From positions 4,177-49,142 of the forward strand of contig PAQL01000024.1 of the NCBI GenBank assembly GCA_002709295.1: a stretch of 44,966 bases of DNA. The letters run 5' to 3'. Below, piece after piece: positions 6,297 to 14,657 of this stretch. Within the stretch, counting starts at the first letter, position 1. Each line of letters begins with the position of its first letter. A model generated the notes under the pieces. That model saw only the letters and a list, made by a program, of their open reading frames with translations. It did no database searches and was not told the origin of the DNA. A program made the translations under genes and the position numbers. The DNA is from Phycisphaerae bacterium. GTDB taxonomy: Bacteria; Planctomycetota; Phycisphaerae; Phycisphaerales; SM1A02.

Positions 6297-7457
6297 TCAG
6301 GCGGGCTGACGGGAGGCGGCGTCGCGGTACAGCTCGAGGACCTTCGTCATCTCCTCACGCATCCGGTCGTCGGCCTTGTCCACCGCCTTCTTCTGATACT
6401 TCACCGCGGAGCCGATATCGCCCTTCTCGAAGTAGGCGCGGGCGAGGGTGTCGAGAATGGCGGCGTTGTTGCCGCCGGCGGCCTCGTTGGCGGCCTTGGC
6501 GACCGACATCGCGAACTCCAGATCCCGGTTCCTCACTGCGGGGTCGTCGAGCACGTACCACGCCATGCTGTTGAGCATCATCGAGTCGTGCCGGTTGGCC
6601 TTCAGCAGCTTCCATCCGAGTTCATAGCCCGATTCGTCGTCGACCGGACCCACGAGCAGGCGGAACTTCATCATCTCGAGGTCGGAGTTGTCGGGAAGCT
6701 GCTGCATCGCCCGGTCGAGCGTCTTGAGCGTGTCGGTGTAGTCGCCGCTCTGCCTGCTCTCCCGCATGCTCATGCTCACCTGACGCATGATCTGCTTCGA
6801 CTTCTCGGCCTCGTCGAAATCCTTCCGGGCCTTCGCGACGTCCCACTTGCCGTCGATGATCTTCGCCAGCGGTTCGTCCATCCGCATGGGATGGCCGATC
6901 CAGGCGACACGGCCCTCCTGGTCGACCACGAAGGCGCAGGGGATGCCGGTCTGTCGCGCGGCCCTCATGTAGGCGTTGTTGGTCCGGGATTCGTCGTCAA
7001 GCGCCATCGTGTACCGGGTCTTCTCGTCCCATTCGGGCTTGGCGAGAAACTCCCTGACCACCTCCGGCTTCTCACGGGTGACCCCGATGATGGTGAGGCC
7101 CCGGTCGGCGTGCTTCTGCTGGAGTTCACTGATGTGGGGCATGCCGGCCCGGCACGGTCCGCACCAGGTCGCCCAGAACTCCATGACCGTGACCCTGCCT
7201 TCGGGAAAGGCCTCGAAGTCGGTGTCGCCCTTGAGGATCTCGGCGAGGTGCGGCATGGGTGCCTGGTCGCCGATCCGAAGGAGCTTCATCCTCTCCTCCT
7301 GGCCGGCCTTCTCGGCGGGGGCCGCGGCAGGGGCGATCTTCTTCGCGGGGATGCTGTCCTGTGCGGCGACCTTGGCCGGCCCGTGCTGGGCCACGGCGAT
7401 CGAAGCAAGACCGAGGGCGAAGACGCTTGTGGCGACGATCTGGAGGGGGCTGGGCAT
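6297..7457 (-). CDS. Secreted TlpA/ResA-like thioredoxin-domain protein with TPR-like C-terminus
   Basis: 386 residues from the ATG at 7457 (preceded by GGAG at suitable spacing); an upstream ATG at 7481 would only add eight residues before the signal peptide. Residues 1-25 are a signal peptide (MPSPLQIVATSVFALGLASIAVAQ). Residues about 65-200 are a TlpA/AhpC-type thioredoxin domain with the strand VTVMEFWATWCGPCR; the redox pair is Cys99 and Cys102, and a cis-Pro region follows in TGIPCAFVVDQEGR. The C-terminal half is helical with TPR-like repeats (DTLARAYFEKGDIGSAVKY). Probably a periplasmic thiol-disulfide reductant or redox chaperone. It follows a paralogue on the same strand after 118 bases, and the two are likely co-transcribed. 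Confidence 0.85.
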   Translation of the reverse strand: MPSPLQIVATSVFALGLASIAVAQHGPAKVAAQDSIPAKKIAPAAAPAEKAGQEERMKLLRIGDQAPMPHLAEILKGDTDFEAFPEGRVTVMEFWATWCGPCRAGMPHISELQQKHADRGLTIIGVTREKPEVVREFLAKPEWDEKTRYTMALDDESRTNNAYMRAARQTGIPCAFVVDQEGRVAWIGHPMRMDEPLAKIIDGKWDVAKARKDFDEAEKSKQIMRQVSMSMRESRQSGDYTDTLKTLDRAMQQLPDNSDLEMMKFRLLVGPVDDESGYELGWKLLKANRHDSMMLNSMAWYVLDDPAVRNRDLEFAMSVAKAANEAAGGNNAAILDTLARAYFEKGDIGSAVKYQKKAVDKADDRMREEMTKVLELYRDAASRQPA

Positions 7458-7575
7458 CTCGGATCTCCGACTGGGATGCATGACGGTTCCGGACCACCCG
7501 ATCCGGCCCGGAGAGCCTATCGCGCCGGTCCCTCCGGCAAGCGGTGGATCCCCCGGGTTGCCGGTGAACGCTTGC

Positions 7576-8727
7576 TCAGCGGGGCTGACGGGGCGATCGG
7601 TAGGGTCGCGGCAGCTCGCCGGGTGCGAGACGACCCGCGGTGTAGGCCTCGAGGTTGGCCCGGATGCCGTCGCCATGCCAGGTGTCGGGGGCGAGTCCGG
7701 CGGCCTTCCGCTGGAGGCGGATCGCCTCGCTGGCCTCGCCTCGCAACCAGTGGATCCGGGCGAGCGTGTCCAGATGTCCGTAGTCCATCCATCCCTGGAC
7801 CGCGTTGCTGCGACGGCTCGCCTCGAGTGCGAAGTCGAGGTCCCTCGTCCGGACGTTCGGGAAGGACACCGTGTGCCAGGCGAGTTCGTTCAGGGTGATG
7901 GGGCTGCGGGGGAATCGTTCGATGATCTCACGTCCGAAGTCGTAGGCCTGTTCCGGCCGGTCGGCATCCGCGAGCAGGATGTCGAACTTCCTCACCAGCA
8001 ATGGGGTGTTTCGCGGATCCAGGGTCAGTCCCTCATCAAGGGTTGCGATGACCTCGTCCCATGAGAGTTGTCCGCGGTTGGCCTGCGAGCGTTGCTGCTG
8101 GACCGTGCCCATCAGGTTCATCCGTGCCTCGTAGACCAGGGCGTCGCGACGATAGTCGCCGGGATTCCAGGTGTTCGAGACGATGTCGGCGAGGGGCCGA
8201 AGCATCCTGGTCAGCGGCGAGTGGTAGGAGATCCGGCCCTCCCGGTCGATCGCGATCACCGCGGGCAGCGAGGTGATACCGAGGGGCTCGAGGAACGCCC
8301 TGCGCCAGGTGTCTCCCTCGTCGACGATGGTCCTTGGAGTCACCGGCGAACGCCCGGGAAGGTTCATGAGGACCTGTTCGGCCCGGTCTTCGGGACCAAG
8401 GGCGATGGAGATGCCATCGATGTGATCCTGATCTCGATCGACCTCTCCCAGTCGGGCGAGGTCATCACCGGCACCTCCCACGAAGGGTGACCAGAACACC
8501 ATGAGGGTGTATCCGTCCCGGGACCAAGCCTCGAGAGGAGGGCCGATCAGCGGCTTCCCGGCCTCGGGCAGGGGGGCGGGTTCTCCGAGCATCCGGAGCT
8601 CGCGGATCGTGGAGTCGTCCGGAGCGAATCGGGAGGTGGCGATGGGCGGAAGTTCCGTCGGGGCCTCCTGGAGGGCCGGAAGGCTTCCGAGGGACAGGAC
8701 GATCCCGAAGGTGGCCAGCGTCATCAT
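7576..8727 (-). CDS. Secreted thioredoxin-fold protein lacking the CXXC motif, TPR-like C-terminus
   Basis: 383 residues; signal peptide MMTLATFGIVLSLGSLPALQ. It has the same architecture as its downstream neighbour (thioredoxin-like domain, then helical TPR-like half ending in YGHLDTLARIHWLRGEASEA). The redox motif is gone: the strand reads TLMVFWSPFVGGAG, with Trp79-Ser-Pro-Phe-Val where the neighbour has Trp98-Cys-Gly-Pro-Cys. The later SLPAVIAIDREGRISY strand, which carries the cis-Pro, is kept. So it is a tandem duplicate that keeps the fold but cannot do dithiol exchange at this site; a structural, binding or regulatory role is inferred. The ATG at 8727 sits six bases after TAGGAT, which supports the first of the two adjacent ATGs as start. 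Confidence 0.8.
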   Translation of the reverse strand: MMTLATFGIVLSLGSLPALQEAPTELPPIATSRFAPDDSTIRELRMLGEPAPLPEAGKPLIGPPLEAWSRDGYTLMVFWSPFVGGAGDDLARLGEVDRDQDHIDGISIALGPEDRAEQVLMNLPGRSPVTPRTIVDEGDTWRRAFLEPLGITSLPAVIAIDREGRISYHSPLTRMLRPLADIVSNTWNPGDYRRDALVYEARMNLMGTVQQQRSQANRGQLSWDEVIATLDEGLTLDPRNTPLLVRKFDILLADADRPEQAYDFGREIIERFPRSPITLNELAWHTVSFPNVRTRDLDFALEASRRSNAVQGWMDYGHLDTLARIHWLRGEASEAIRLQRKAAGLAPDTWHGDGIRANLEAYTAGRLAPGELPRPYRSPRQPR

Positions 8728-8783: not shown

Positions 8784-9629
8784 ATGTCCGCCCAGCTCAT
8801 CGATGGCAAGCAGCTCAGTTTCGCGGTGCGGAGGCAGGTCGCTCGCCGGGTCGCGGAGGCCCGCCGACCGGTGCGCCTCGACGCGGTCATCGTCGGAGAG
8901 GACAAGGGCGCGGACATCTACGCTCACAACCAGCGGAAGACCTGTGCCGCGGTCGGCATCGAGTACCACCTGCACCGTCTGCCGGCCGATGTCGTTCAGG
9001 ATGACGTCGTCGAGGTGGTCGCCGGTCTCAACGCCGGGGAGTCGGTCACCGCGATCATGGTGCACATGCCCCTCCCCGAGGGGCTCGAGGCGGAGGCGAT
9101 CCAGTCCCTGATCGATCCGACCAAGGACGTCGAGGGGGTCAATCCGGCGAACATCGGCAACATCGTCTACGGCCGTCGGAGTCTCGTTCCGTGCACCGCC
9201 CTTGCGAGCGTCGAGATGATCGAGTCGACCGGAGTCGAACTTCGCGGCAAGCGTTGCGTGATCGTGGGGGCGAGCAACATCGTGGGCAAGCCGATCGCGG
9301 TCCTGCTGATGCGGGCCGAGGCGACGGTGATCTCGACCAACAAGCACACCGAGGACCTGCCGGGGCTGACTCGCAGCGCGGATGTCCTGGTCAGCGCGGC
9401 CGGCGTGCCGGGGCTGATCACCCGCGACATGGTGAAGGAGGGGGCGGTGGTGGTCGATGTCGGGATCAACCGCATCCAGGGCGAGGACGGCAAGCGGCGC
9501 ACCGTGGGCGACGTCGCCTTCGAGGAGGTGAGCGAGGTCGCGGGTCACCTCAGCCCGGTGCCCGGCGGCGTGGGTCCGATGACGGTGGCGATGCTGCTTC
9601 GAAACACCTGCGAAGCCGCCCTGGGGTGA
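8784..9629 (+). CDS. folD: FolD-family methylenetetrahydrofolate dehydrogenase/cyclohydrolase with substituted catalytic residues
   Basis: 281 residues, normal length. FolD interconverts 5,10-methylene-, 5,10-methenyl- and 10-formyl-tetrahydrofolate. The fold markers are clear: an N-terminal substrate domain, PCTALASVEMIE, the NAD(P) segment GASNIVGKPIAVLL, ADVLVSAAGVPG, VVDVGINR and PVPGGVGPMTVAMLL. The catalytic centre is altered. The Tyr-x3-Lys motif reads Tyr46-Ala-His-Asn-Gln50 with Gln for the catalytic Lys. The usual VQLPLP reads VHMPLP with His94 for the catalytic Gln. The usual KDVDG reads KDVEG with Glu117 for Asp. In the human enzyme these positions are Lys56, Gln100 and Asp125. 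The dehydrogenase half may be retained while the cyclohydrolase step is lost or done differently (inference). Start supported by TATCCT-six bases-ATG. Confidence 0.93.
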   Translation: MSAQLIDGKQLSFAVRRQVARRVAEARRPVRLDAVIVGEDKGADIYAHNQRKTCAAVGIEYHLHRLPADVVQDDVVEVVAGLNAGESVTAIMVHMPLPEGLEAEAIQSLIDPTKDVEGVNPANIGNIVYGRRSLVPCTALASVEMIESTGVELRGKRCVIVGASNIVGKPIAVLLMRAEATVISTNKHTEDLPGLTRSADVLVSAAGVPGLITRDMVKEGAVVVDVGINRIQGEDGKRRTVGDVAFEEVSEVAGHLSPVPGGVGPMTVAMLLRNTCEAALG

Positions 9630-9948
9630 TGATTCGAGGATCGCGTTCCGTTCTCAGCGGTGTTCACCGGGGGAGGTGACCGGCATCACGGTTCCGTCGA
9701 CGTCTCCAGGGGCGATCGTGTCGTCCTGGATGGCACCTCCAGCATCCCGATGGATGGGGGCGTCCTCTGCGGTGGAGCGGCGTTGTTCACGCTCACCACG
9801 GCCGGATGCCGCGAATTTCCCAAACCGCGGATATTCCCGCAGACATTCCGACTTCTCTGCGTATGGACTGATGACGGGCGGTCATCCACAGCCGTTTCGT
9901 CTCATTTCTCGTTCCGTGGGGTGGTCCGACAGGCAGGAAGGTTTCAGG
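9630..9948. other. Gap of 319 bases between folD and the sigma factor gene
   Basis: I see no gene here. Frames are open by chance through part of it, but nothing resembles a protein family. The last 15 bases contain AGGAAGG, the probable ribosome-binding site of the sigma factor gene. The promoter of that gene must lie here but I could not identify a convincing box. Confidence 0.5.
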
Positions 9949-10533
9949 ATGTCCGATGGTGAATCCGCCGAGAGGCGGTCGGCGATCGTTCTCGATCTCT
10001 TCGACCGGTATTACGACAGGGTCTTCGCGTTCGCACGTCGGTCCGTGGGGCCGAACCTCGCCGAGGATGCGACCCAGGAGGCGTTCCTCCGACTTCTTCA
10101 GCATCCGCGACTCGAGGAACTCGAGATCTCGATCAGCTACATGCTCCGGGTGGTTCAGAACATCCTGCGACGGCGGCACACCCGCACCGCGAGGCTTCGG
10201 GAGATCCTCGAGCAGGAGATCAAGCCCAGGCAGCGACGGAAGGAAGCCGATGGGACGAATGGGATCTACCAGCGTCCCGAACCGCGGACGGTGCTGGAGA
10301 ACATGGATCTCGAACTGGCCCTGAACCGGTTGTCCAACGACGAGCGGGACACGATCCGACTGGTGGTCTGCGAGGGTCTGAGCTACGCCGAGGCGGCGAG
10401 AAGCCTCGGAGTGTCGGTGACCACGGTCAACAACTGGCGACATCGAGGACTGGCCCGGCTTCGTGGTCTGGTCCATGCCGAGGGCGTCCTGCATCAGAAG
10501 CGGAATCGGACCTGCCGCGGACAGACCGGCTGA
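9949..10533 (+). CDS. ECF-type RNA polymerase sigma factor
   Basis: 194 residues from the ATG at 9949, which has a good AGGAAGG site upstream; the frame is open further upstream but without homology. Region 2 is seen in DLFDRYYDRVFAFARRSVG...LAEDATQEAFLRLL, where the DATQEAF stretch is the region 2.2 signature, and in the following ISYMLRVVQNILRRRHTR. Region 4 is seen in LNRLSNDERDTIRLVVCEGLSYAEAARSLGVSVTTVNNWRHRGLARL, a helix-turn-helix that reads the -35 element. Length and lack of region 3 put it in the ECF group. No anti-sigma factor is adjacent; the next gene encodes a surface protein, which may or may not be a target. Confidence 0.93.
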   Translation: MSDGESAERRSAIVLDLFDRYYDRVFAFARRSVGPNLAEDATQEAFLRLLQHPRLEELEISISYMLRVVQNILRRRHTRTARLREILEQEIKPRQRRKEADGTNGIYQRPEPRTVLENMDLELALNRLSNDERDTIRLVVCEGLSYAEAARSLGVSVTTVNNWRHRGLARLRGLVHAEGVLHQKRNRTCRGQTG

Positions 10534-13180: not shown

Positions 13181-14446
13181 TCAGCCGCGGGGGTTCACGA
13201 CCCGGCCCATGAAGTAGATGGTGCCGGCGACGCGATCCCTCACCAGGTACATGAACGGACGGTCGAGGGTCATCTCGACGGGCCGAGGCCTCGGCCTGAC
13301 GCTTCGGCTGGTGGTGATCGTGGTGAGCGCCGCTGCCTCGGTGCCCGATTCATCGACCTTGATCACCGCATCCTGCGTGGCGTCGGTGATCGTGGGCGAG
13401 GCTCCCTCCAGCATTCGACCGAGATCGGGAGTCGCGAAAAGACCGGTCGAGGTCATCGCCCCGAGCAAATCCTTGAGGTCGAGCTCGCTGGAGATCTCGA
13501 ACTTCGGAAGCTCGAGCGCGACGGTGCGTCTCTTCATCGCACGGTCCCATCCGGCGACGGTGGCGGAGGAGAGCGTCTTCTCGAGATCCGCGAGGGATCG
13601 ACCCTCCCTCGGAAGCACCAGGGTCATGGAGACCTCGTCGCCCACGTAGGGCAGCTCGATGATCTGGGCGTCCTCGTTCTCGAGGTACCGATGGCCGGTT
13701 TCCTGGCTCATGGTGGGCACGTTGATCGAACCGCCATCGCTCAGGGTGAAGGGGCGGTACCTCGTCATGGCCGTCTTGAACTCGACCTTCCAGGTCGCGT
13801 CCAGGTGGACGGTGTTCATGAGGATCAGGAGGTCCGCGGGCGAGACCGGGCCCGGAGCCTCCTTGATCAGGCCGTTGGTGTTCTCATCGACCCACGTGTT
13901 CATCCTCTCCTGCACCGCATCGGGATCGTTGAAGTCGACCGAGAAGATCTCGCCGGCGATGTTCGACTCGAGGTCTCGGGCGTACCCGGGACGGACGCGG
14001 ACATCCTTGCCCGCCCAGCAGGAACTGGCGATGTCGATCCGACAGGTCTCGTCGTCGCCCTGTCGGTCGATGTGCCGGCGCAGATTCCCGAAGGAGGCCA
14101 TGATCTCATCGGCGGGCACGGGGTAGTGGAAGAGGTCCTCGAGAAGGTGGGCGGTGTCCGCACTGCTTCCGGCGTACAAAAGCGCGAAGCACTCGGAGAT
14201 GCCGTAGGGGGAGAGGACGAGGTTCCTGCCGGGGTGGATGCCCCGGCGGTAGAAGTCGTAGGCGAACTCCTGGTTGGCCTTGGAGAGCGAACGCAGGGCG
14301 GTGCGGTCGATCTTCGCCTCCACCTTCTCGGCGGAGGTCTCCTTCTCGTCGTCGGCGATGACGGTGCTTGCGCTCGATCCCAGGAGAAGGCTGCCGAGGC
14401 CGAGGGCCAGGAGGGTGGAGGTCGTTCTGGTGGTTGAAGGTGACAT
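13181..14446 (-). CDS. Secreted serpin (serine protease inhibitor family)
   Basis: About 421 residues from the ATG at 14446, which opens a signal peptide (MSPSTTRTTSTLLALGLGSLLLG) ending near STVIADD. The frame extends upstream to 14578 without homology. Serpin features in order: NLVLSPYGISECFALLYAGS (helix B/C), LLILMNTVHLDATWKVEF, the strand region with FTLSDGG and VPTMSQ, ELPYVGDEVSMTLVLPR, LPKFEISSELDLKDLL, and the C-terminal DRPFMYLVRDRVAGTIYFMGRVVNP. The hinge before the reactive loop, ESGTEAAALTT near residue 365, has the small residues expected of an inhibitory serpin, followed by an Arg/Pro-rich loop. It probably inhibits an external or self-made serine protease; two subtilases are encoded elsewhere in this window. 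Confidence 0.93.
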   Translation of the reverse strand: MSPSTTRTTSTLLALGLGSLLLGSSASTVIADDEKETSAEKVEAKIDRTALRSLSKANQEFAYDFYRRGIHPGRNLVLSPYGISECFALLYAGSSADTAHLLEDLFHYPVPADEIMASFGNLRRHIDRQGDDETCRIDIASSCWAGKDVRVRPGYARDLESNIAGEIFSVDFNDPDAVQERMNTWVDENTNGLIKEAPGPVSPADLLILMNTVHLDATWKVEFKTAMTRYRPFTLSDGGSINVPTMSQETGHRYLENEDAQIIELPYVGDEVSMTLVLPREGRSLADLEKTLSSATVAGWDRAMKRRTVALELPKFEISSELDLKDLLGAMTSTGLFATPDLGRMLEGASPTITDATQDAVIKVDESGTEAAALTTITTSRSVRPRPRPVEMTLDRPFMYLVRDRVAGTIYFMGRVVNPRG

Positions 14447-14657
14447 GATTCGGATGTTCCCGGAAGAGGGTGTCATGGTGCCCCGGTGATGGATCGCCGG
14501 CAGGAATCGACGGCGAGCACCACCACATGGCCACCCGGGGGACAGTGTCCACGAATCGGCGGGGAGATGAAGGATCATTCCACGAAAACGCCCCTGCGGA
14601 TCTCTCGGGGGCCGAAGCCGGCGAGGGGGGCGGAGGTGATCCGATGGGACGGGGTGC

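Follow-up and report, generated by a model that had tools for sequence, protein, structure and literature searches.

The FolD protein encoded in a 44,966-nt stretch of DNA from a Phycisphaerae bacterium (GCA_002709295.1, contig PAQL01000024.1, positions 4,177-49,142 of the forward strand; hereafter the window) is very probably a dehydrogenase-only member of an old FolD subfamily, the second step of the pathway being carried out by a separate protein of the FchA family. FolD usually carries a bifunctional annotation. In the present case, the Gln/Glu form of FolD would perform the first step only, from 5,10-methylene-THF to 5,10-methenyl-THF with NAD(P)+ as the likely cofactor, while the FchA-family protein, a putative methenyl-THF cyclohydrolase whose gene lies on a different contig of this genome (G000:C9:22163-22669), would hydrolyse methenyl-THF to 10-formyl-THF. 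From the active-site residues, the co-occurrence of the two genes and published E. coli mutants, we infer that the window FolD keeps the dehydrogenase activity and lacks the cyclohydrolase activity.

The folD gene and its product

The folD gene, its domains and the residues discussed below are listed in Table 1. Both Pfam domains are complete, with PF00763 at 97.7 bits (cut-off 32.8) and PF02882 at 205.9 bits (cut-off 27), and the PVPGGVGPMT motif is kept, in agreement with a previous reading of the DNA made from the sequence only, which had described fold and cofactor motifs as intact. The best PDB relatives found with phmmer are FolD proteins, and against the NCBIfam FolD models the protein reaches 292.4 bits at most (cut-off 396), falling below the cut-off in all 25 matches listed. 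An AF2 model computed with 38 sequences shows a mean pLDDT of 95.7, and its nearest solved folds according to Foldseek are FolD/MTHFD structures (T. thermophilus 6v6y and E. coli 1b0a, TM score 0.92-0.96). Such complete domains and such a confident model indicate that the protein is not decayed. Indeed, a FolD in decay with little activity of either kind could be invoked because residues implicated in catalysis are lost, but this is extremely improbable given the intact domains and predicted fold, the presence of the same residue pair in 105 copies of the class sample and the fact that no other FolD was found in the genome.

Table 1. Features of the folD gene; positions are counted from the first nucleotide of the window.
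Feature	Position	Strand	Description
folD	8784..9629	+	281 aa; ORF and translation; predicted methylene-THF dehydrogenase without cyclohydrolase activity
PF00763, folate-binding catalytic domain	8799..9134	+	Residues 6-117, Pfam
PF02882, NAD(P)-binding domain	9144..9620	+	Residues 121-279, Pfam
Y46-A-H-N-Q50, YxxxK motif	8919..8933	+	Tyr kept, catalytic Lys replaced by Gln50 (codon CAG, 8931-8933)
His94	9063..9065	+	Codon CAC; aligned with E. coli Gln98; varies within the clade
Glu117	9132..9134	+	Codon GAG; position of E. coli Asp121, in KDVEG
PCTALA, Ala139 and Ala141	9189..9206	+	Pro and Gly in the Lys/Asp group; part of the wider Gln/Glu-group signature

In the window folD is solitary, being flanked by a minus-strand ORF pair (6297-8727) and by the gene of an ECF-type sigma factor located just downstream (9676-10533, plus strand). 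The two minus-strand ORFs overlap and look like tandem paralogues, one of them with AhpC/TSA-thioredoxin and TPR matches and the other with a weak TPR match. A serpin, a kind of protein unusual in bacteria, is encoded at 13184-14578 on the minus strand (PF00079, E 1.6e-89). No cyclohydrolase partner gene was found within the window.

Active-site substitutions

In order to place the substituted residues, the protein was aligned with E. coli FolD (1b0a) using phmmer. Gln50 falls on the Lys of YVASK (Lys54), His94 on the Gln of VQLPLP (Gln98) and Glu117 on the second Asp of KDVDG (Asp121). Translation, codons and alignment thus confirm that these three residues replace those of the catalytic centre, as first noticed in the sequence-only reading. 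The numbering corresponds to K54 and Q98 of E. coli FolD (PMC5688156, in extract) and to Gln98/Asp121, the bacterial counterparts of human Gln100/Asp125 (PMC3338484, in extract). Compared with bifunctional E. coli FolD and the DC domain of human MTHFD1, the window FolD has the same domains, length and predicted fold and shares the Tyr of YxxxK as well as the PLP, KDV(D/E)G and PVPGGVGPMT motifs, but differs by the replacement of the catalytic Lys by Gln, of the positioning Gln by His and of the pterin-binding Asp by Glu. Hence two residues of the bifunctional enzymes, the Lys of YxxxK and its Gln partner, are absent. At the third position, where mutants of human Asp125 reportedly lose both activities, the carboxylate is kept in Glu117, one methylene further out than in Asp.

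In the cyclohydrolase step the Lys acts as general acid-base, the Gln positions the Lys and the Asp holds the pterin (PMC3338484, in extract), and much the same roles are described elsewhere with, in addition, an involvement of the Lys in hydride abstraction (PMC3368264, in extract). E. coli FolD K54N displays no detectable cyclohydrolase and ~ 19% dehydrogenase activity, and Q98H ~ 1% cyclohydrolase and ~ 8% dehydrogenase activity (PMC5688156, in extract). Q98H (PDB 5o2a) is the same change as His94 and K54N lies at the position of Gln50; since the same positions are changed, the window FolD is predicted to be a dehydrogenase without cyclohydrolase activity. However, K54N and Q98H are laboratory mutants, whereas the form found in the window is natural, widely conserved and also carries Glu at the Asp position. 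As the mutants lost 81-92% of the dehydrogenase activity, the natural enzyme must compensate elsewhere. The Gln/Glu group also departs from the bifunctional Lys/Asp group by further fixed differences (Tyr61, Gln107, Ala139, Ala141 and others), and these wider changes may keep the natural dehydrogenase efficient.

A nearby Lys substituting for the lost one had been proposed as an observation that would argue against this reading. None was found by alignment, no column showing a conserved Lys gained in the Gln/Glu group; the strongest gain, at column 239, is 49% versus 0%.

FolD types across the class

The FolD type was next read in 150 sampled genomes of the class, 142 of which were counted at genome level. 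Five genomes gave no FolD match (G021, G114, G129, G133 and G144), and G079 and G058 (C-terminal fragment only) as well as G082 (N-terminus absent, with Glu and FchA) were dropped from the counts. Among the FolD copies 105 are Gln50/Glu117, 41 are Lys/Asp and one is Arg/Glu, and the mixed states Gln/Asp or Lys/Glu were not seen in any readable copy of the class. Residue 50 is therefore Gln in 105/105 copies with Glu117 and Lys in 41/41 copies with Asp117. Position 94 is always Gln in the Lys/Asp copies and varies in the Gln/Glu copies (57 His, 37 Gln, 7 Asn, 3 Leu and 1 Met). The sequence-only reading had proposed three coordinated changes: the coupling of Gln50 with Glu117 stands, but a coordination of all three residues was rejected because position 94 differs within the clade.

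The same reading had called for a check of whether the Gln/His/Glu combination is clade-wide. Within the order of the window, families f1, f2 and f5 carry it in 14/14 genomes, together with FchA, versus the canonical Lys/Gln/Asp combination in 10/10 genomes of families f3 and f4, in which FchA was not found (0/10). Given these sister families, a clade-wide distribution was rejected.

These counts also bear on another explanation, namely that the Gln/His/Glu FolD is still bifunctional through a different mechanism, the acid-base being, for instance, His94, Tyr46 or a water molecule. Tyr46 is kept in the class (104 Tyr and 1 Phe in the 105 Gln/Glu copies) and the Tyr of YxxxK could come near the cyclohydrolase site in another rotamer (PMC3338484, in extract); moreover, His94 is a possible base and several other columns changed along with Gln50. 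However, His94 varies across the clade, the E. coli Q98H mutant retains almost no cyclohydrolase activity, as mentioned above, and a bifunctional enzyme leaves unexplained why FchA tracks the FolD type. A retained second activity is thus unlikely.

The 10-formyl-THF pathway in the genome of origin

The assembly to which the window belongs (G000) is 95.3% complete in 43 contigs. The sequence-only reading had argued that, if this FolD is the only one, a separate cyclohydrolase or a formate-THF ligase must exist, and the genome content bears this out on the side of the cyclohydrolase. Indeed, a single FolD was found, Fhs (formate-THF ligase, PF01268) was not found in the genome, and an FchA-family gene (PF04961, 113.5 bits in the genome search) is present. 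The methanopterin-type cyclohydrolase Mch was not found in the genome either, and an H4MPT-type Mch was for this reason rejected as the second step. PurH, which consumes 10-formyl-THF, is present. With no Fhs found, FchA is the only route to 10-formyl-THF found in this genome.

The FchA product is 223 aa long (L255:3547-4215, minus strand) and scores 115.4 bits against PF04961 (cut-off 24.5). Over its length it matches the solved structures of the cyclohydrolase 7vg4 and of FTCD; it keeps the PGGG motif and has Asp88 aligned to human FTCD residue 412, an Asp that matters for the cyclodeaminase. Within the FchA/FTCD cyclodeaminase domain family (PF04961; 7vg4, 1o5h, 1tt9) it is nevertheless divergent, since it reaches only 72.8 bits for a cut-off of 275 with the NCBIfam FchA equivalog NF045657 while passing the family-level PF04961 cut-off. 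Its ORF shares 4 bases with the end of an ORF of 689 aa whose translation looks like PheT.

This divergence would fit a different scenario, in which FolD is dehydrogenase-only, the FchA-family gene has another role (for example cyclodeaminase-like) and methenyl-THF hydrolyses spontaneously to 10-formyl-THF. The cyclohydrolase reaction can be spontaneous, and E. coli mutants lacking it survive with slow growth (PMC5688156, in extract). Yet the product keeps both the PGGG motif and the aligned Asp, and the association of FchA with this FolD type in the class, and with non-canonical FolD in a second phylum, would be hard to explain if the gene had nothing to do with the missing step. We consider this scenario quite improbable, slightly more so than a FolD that is still bifunctional.

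Distribution of FchA by FolD type in the class

We next examined the distribution of FchA among the class genomes. FchA was found in 99 of the 101 genomes with only Gln(Arg)/Glu FolD, in the five genomes with both FolD types (5/5) and in none of the 36 genomes with only Lys/Asp FolD, or in 1/36 if the match in G142 is counted. The only PF04961 match of G142 lies in a 574-aa frame with the size of a full FTCD (histidine degradation) and was set aside; taking any PF04961 match as FchA was rejected, since FTCD-size frames also match. The two Gln/Glu genomes in which FchA was not found are G092, 79% complete and without Fhs found either, and G117, 93% complete and with Fhs. Three families (f10, f18 and f22) each contain both FolD types, and there too FchA tracks the type, except for G092 in f10. 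Fhs does not show the pattern of FchA by FolD type, as it is present in 28 and absent from 71 of the FchA-bearing Gln(Arg)/Glu-only genomes, and present in 23 and absent from 13 of the Lys/Asp-only genomes.

FolD and FchA in Bacillota

A second sample consisted of 91 genomes from the phylum of a Syntrophomonadaceae genome (Bacillota, NCBI naming), with FolD in 89/91 (not G276 and G332) and FchA in 53. FchA is present in 36/36 genomes without a Lys/Gln/Asp FolD among the copies read (three genomes called non-canonical-only, G336, G274 and G347, could hold another FolD type) and in 16/53 with such a FolD; 34 genomes with only Lys/Gln/Asp FolD are without FchA. The 36 FchA-bearing genomes without a Lys/Gln/Asp FolD read all have a replaced Lys or Gln: 16 of them display Lys/Glu/Asp, and in the others the Lys position holds Ala, Leu, Ile, Met or Gln, or a mixture is seen. 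Outside the count remain 10 further FolD matches in 9 genomes (G300, G323, G275, G336, G272, G274, G278 with two, and G347 and G259 fragments). G318 has no FchA and carries a Gln/Glu FolD plus a second, Lys/Gln/Asp copy, and is hence only an apparent exception.

The gene neighbourhood shows the same tendency. The FolD start lies less than 2 kb from FchA in 24/36 genomes without Lys/Gln/Asp FolD versus 1/16 Lys/Gln/Asp genomes with FchA, and in this single case (G337) it is a Lys/Glu/Asp copy that stands beside FchA. FolD copies with the Lys kept and the partner Gln replaced by Glu (GIMVELPLP) were observed at Bacillota loci such as L335, L336, L331 and L326; FchA occurs in 17/17 genomes of the sample with this form and is often adjacent. 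More divergent Bacillota FolD copies with Ala for Lys (YEGGAK, GILMFAPLP) are found beside FchA at L367, L369, L370, L372, L376 and similar loci.

At four loci a Gln/Glu FolD adjoins a canonical Lys/Gln/Asp FolD: L170 (G161), L349 (G285), L354 (G327) and L355 (G315). All four are Bacillota genomes, and the gap between the tandem matches is below 1 kb in three of them and ~ 3 kb in G315. Such tandems suggest divided work or mixed oligomers. A Clostridiaceae family sample around L173 (59 genomes of 1.1-2.0 Mb) was rejected as a test of the C. perfringens precedent described below, as it is clearly not the own neighbourhood of that species.

For the pairing of FolD type and FchA, Fisher values are 4.9e-31 in the class and 2.9e-11 in Bacillota, where G318 is counted as Gln/Glu-only without FchA, but both overstate independence, since the FolD gene tree holds only 4 independent pairs. 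On these pairs, taken on supported branches of a tree built without removing the trait columns, FchA changes the same way 1.4 times and the opposite way 0.1 times on average; the phylogenetic association test was dropped for lack of power. The support for the pairing is thus the match across taxa together with the gene neighbourhood.

Gln/Glu FolD in other phyla

In order to look beyond these two samples, named genomes were scanned for a pattern of AT-leaning codons for KDVEG...P...N.G, which demands the Glu and not the Gln. The scan gave 97 stretches, 80 of which were taken as loci, from Omnitrophota, Poribacteria, Firestonebacteria, Elusimicrobia, Chloroflexota, Syntrophomonadaceae, Planctomycetota, Thermoplasmata and others. 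Gln stands at the Lys position in 66/80 loci, and an FchA-like sequence lies in the own locus of FolD (up to 8 kb) in 33/80. The FchA search covered the genomes of 50/80 loci; outside the class-like set FchA was found in 31 of the 36 Gln/Glu genomes searched. The remaining five all have Fhs (5/5), and three of them (G157, G161 and G180) a Lys/Gln/Asp FolD. In 8 genomes of other phyla, none with Gln/Glu, PF04961 matches fell in frames of 555-574 aa and were counted as FTCD-size rather than FchA.

G154 (Thermoplasmata, 0.7 Mb), which goes against the rule, has an Arg/Gln/Glu FolD with neither FchA nor Fhs found, and G164 (a Clostridium MAG) a Lys/Gln/Glu FolD with Fhs present and FchA not found. 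In Thermoplasmata, FolD copies in which Arg replaces the Lys and Glu the Asp occur at L163, L165, L178, L207 and L223; four of these five genomes have PF04961 in an FTCD-sized frame (555-566 aa), and no match was found in the fifth (0.7 Mb).

In a FolD tree of 84 rows, 34 Gln/Glu rows and a single Arg/Glu row group together in one clade (SH-aLRT 98), from a short search with the trait columns included in which 36/81 inner branches are below 80. This clade includes the window protein and rows from several phyla.

Relation to known systems and implications

The FolD of C. perfringens is reportedly a dehydrogenase only, with FchA as the cyclohydrolase. As in that system, which comprises FolD, FchA and Fhs, the genome studied here has a separate cyclohydrolase-family gene; unlike in that system, Fhs was not found. 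Yeast Mtd1 (PDB 1edz/1ee9), a eukaryotic NAD-dependent enzyme, is monofunctional with dehydrogenase activity only. It is a distant homologue of the window FolD (E 9.7e-17) and, judged by a similarity far weaker than that to bacterial FolD, appears to be a separate lineage. Separate FchA enzymes have been described (PMC7219735, in extract), and in C. autoethanogenum FolD and FchA are listed separately with neighbouring locus tags (PMC9040625, in extract). In the literature searched, which included few subscription journals, we found neither a link between replacement of the FolD Lys/Asp and FchA nor a description of the Phycisphaerae case; the Gln/Glu signature, the range of taxa that carry it and the rule of its pairing with FchA were likewise not found in print.

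Together, the substitutions, the intact domains and the pairing with FchA make a dehydrogenase-only enzyme, rather than decay, the best-supported reading of the window FolD, one of the two possibilities suggested from the sequence at the outset. More tentatively, and with perhaps some chance of being right in full, the Gln/Glu FolD could be an ancient lineage of dedicated dehydrogenases, and not the outcome of recent losses, with a re-tuned folate pocket (Tyr61, Gln107, Glu117, Ala139 and Ala141), working in a two-protein unit that passes methenyl-THF to FchA or to a tandem canonical FolD, possibly in a mixed oligomer. If this were true, the residues at K56 and Q100 would tell non-bifunctional FolD genes from sequence.

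Carolacton binds E. coli FolD through Lys54 (PMC5688156, in extract), so Gln/Glu FolD is predicted to be naturally insensitive to it. The finding also bears on the statement that the position of the Asp125 carboxylate is an Asp in MTHFDs (PMC6443876, in extract), given that the carboxylate is kept in Gln/Glu FolD, as Glu. A separate cyclohydrolase gene accompanies the signature of Gln for Lys56 and Glu for Asp125 and, in Bacillota, also other substitutions at Lys56 or Gln100; a residue position would then serve to test which enzyme produces 10-formyl-THF. Furthermore, these proteins would supply natural enzymes with the two steps separated, a matter until now debated through mutants. The two-function label is probably wrong for the Gln/Glu FolD clade across several phyla, and the present reading would correct the annotation and the metabolic models for this multi-phylum clade.
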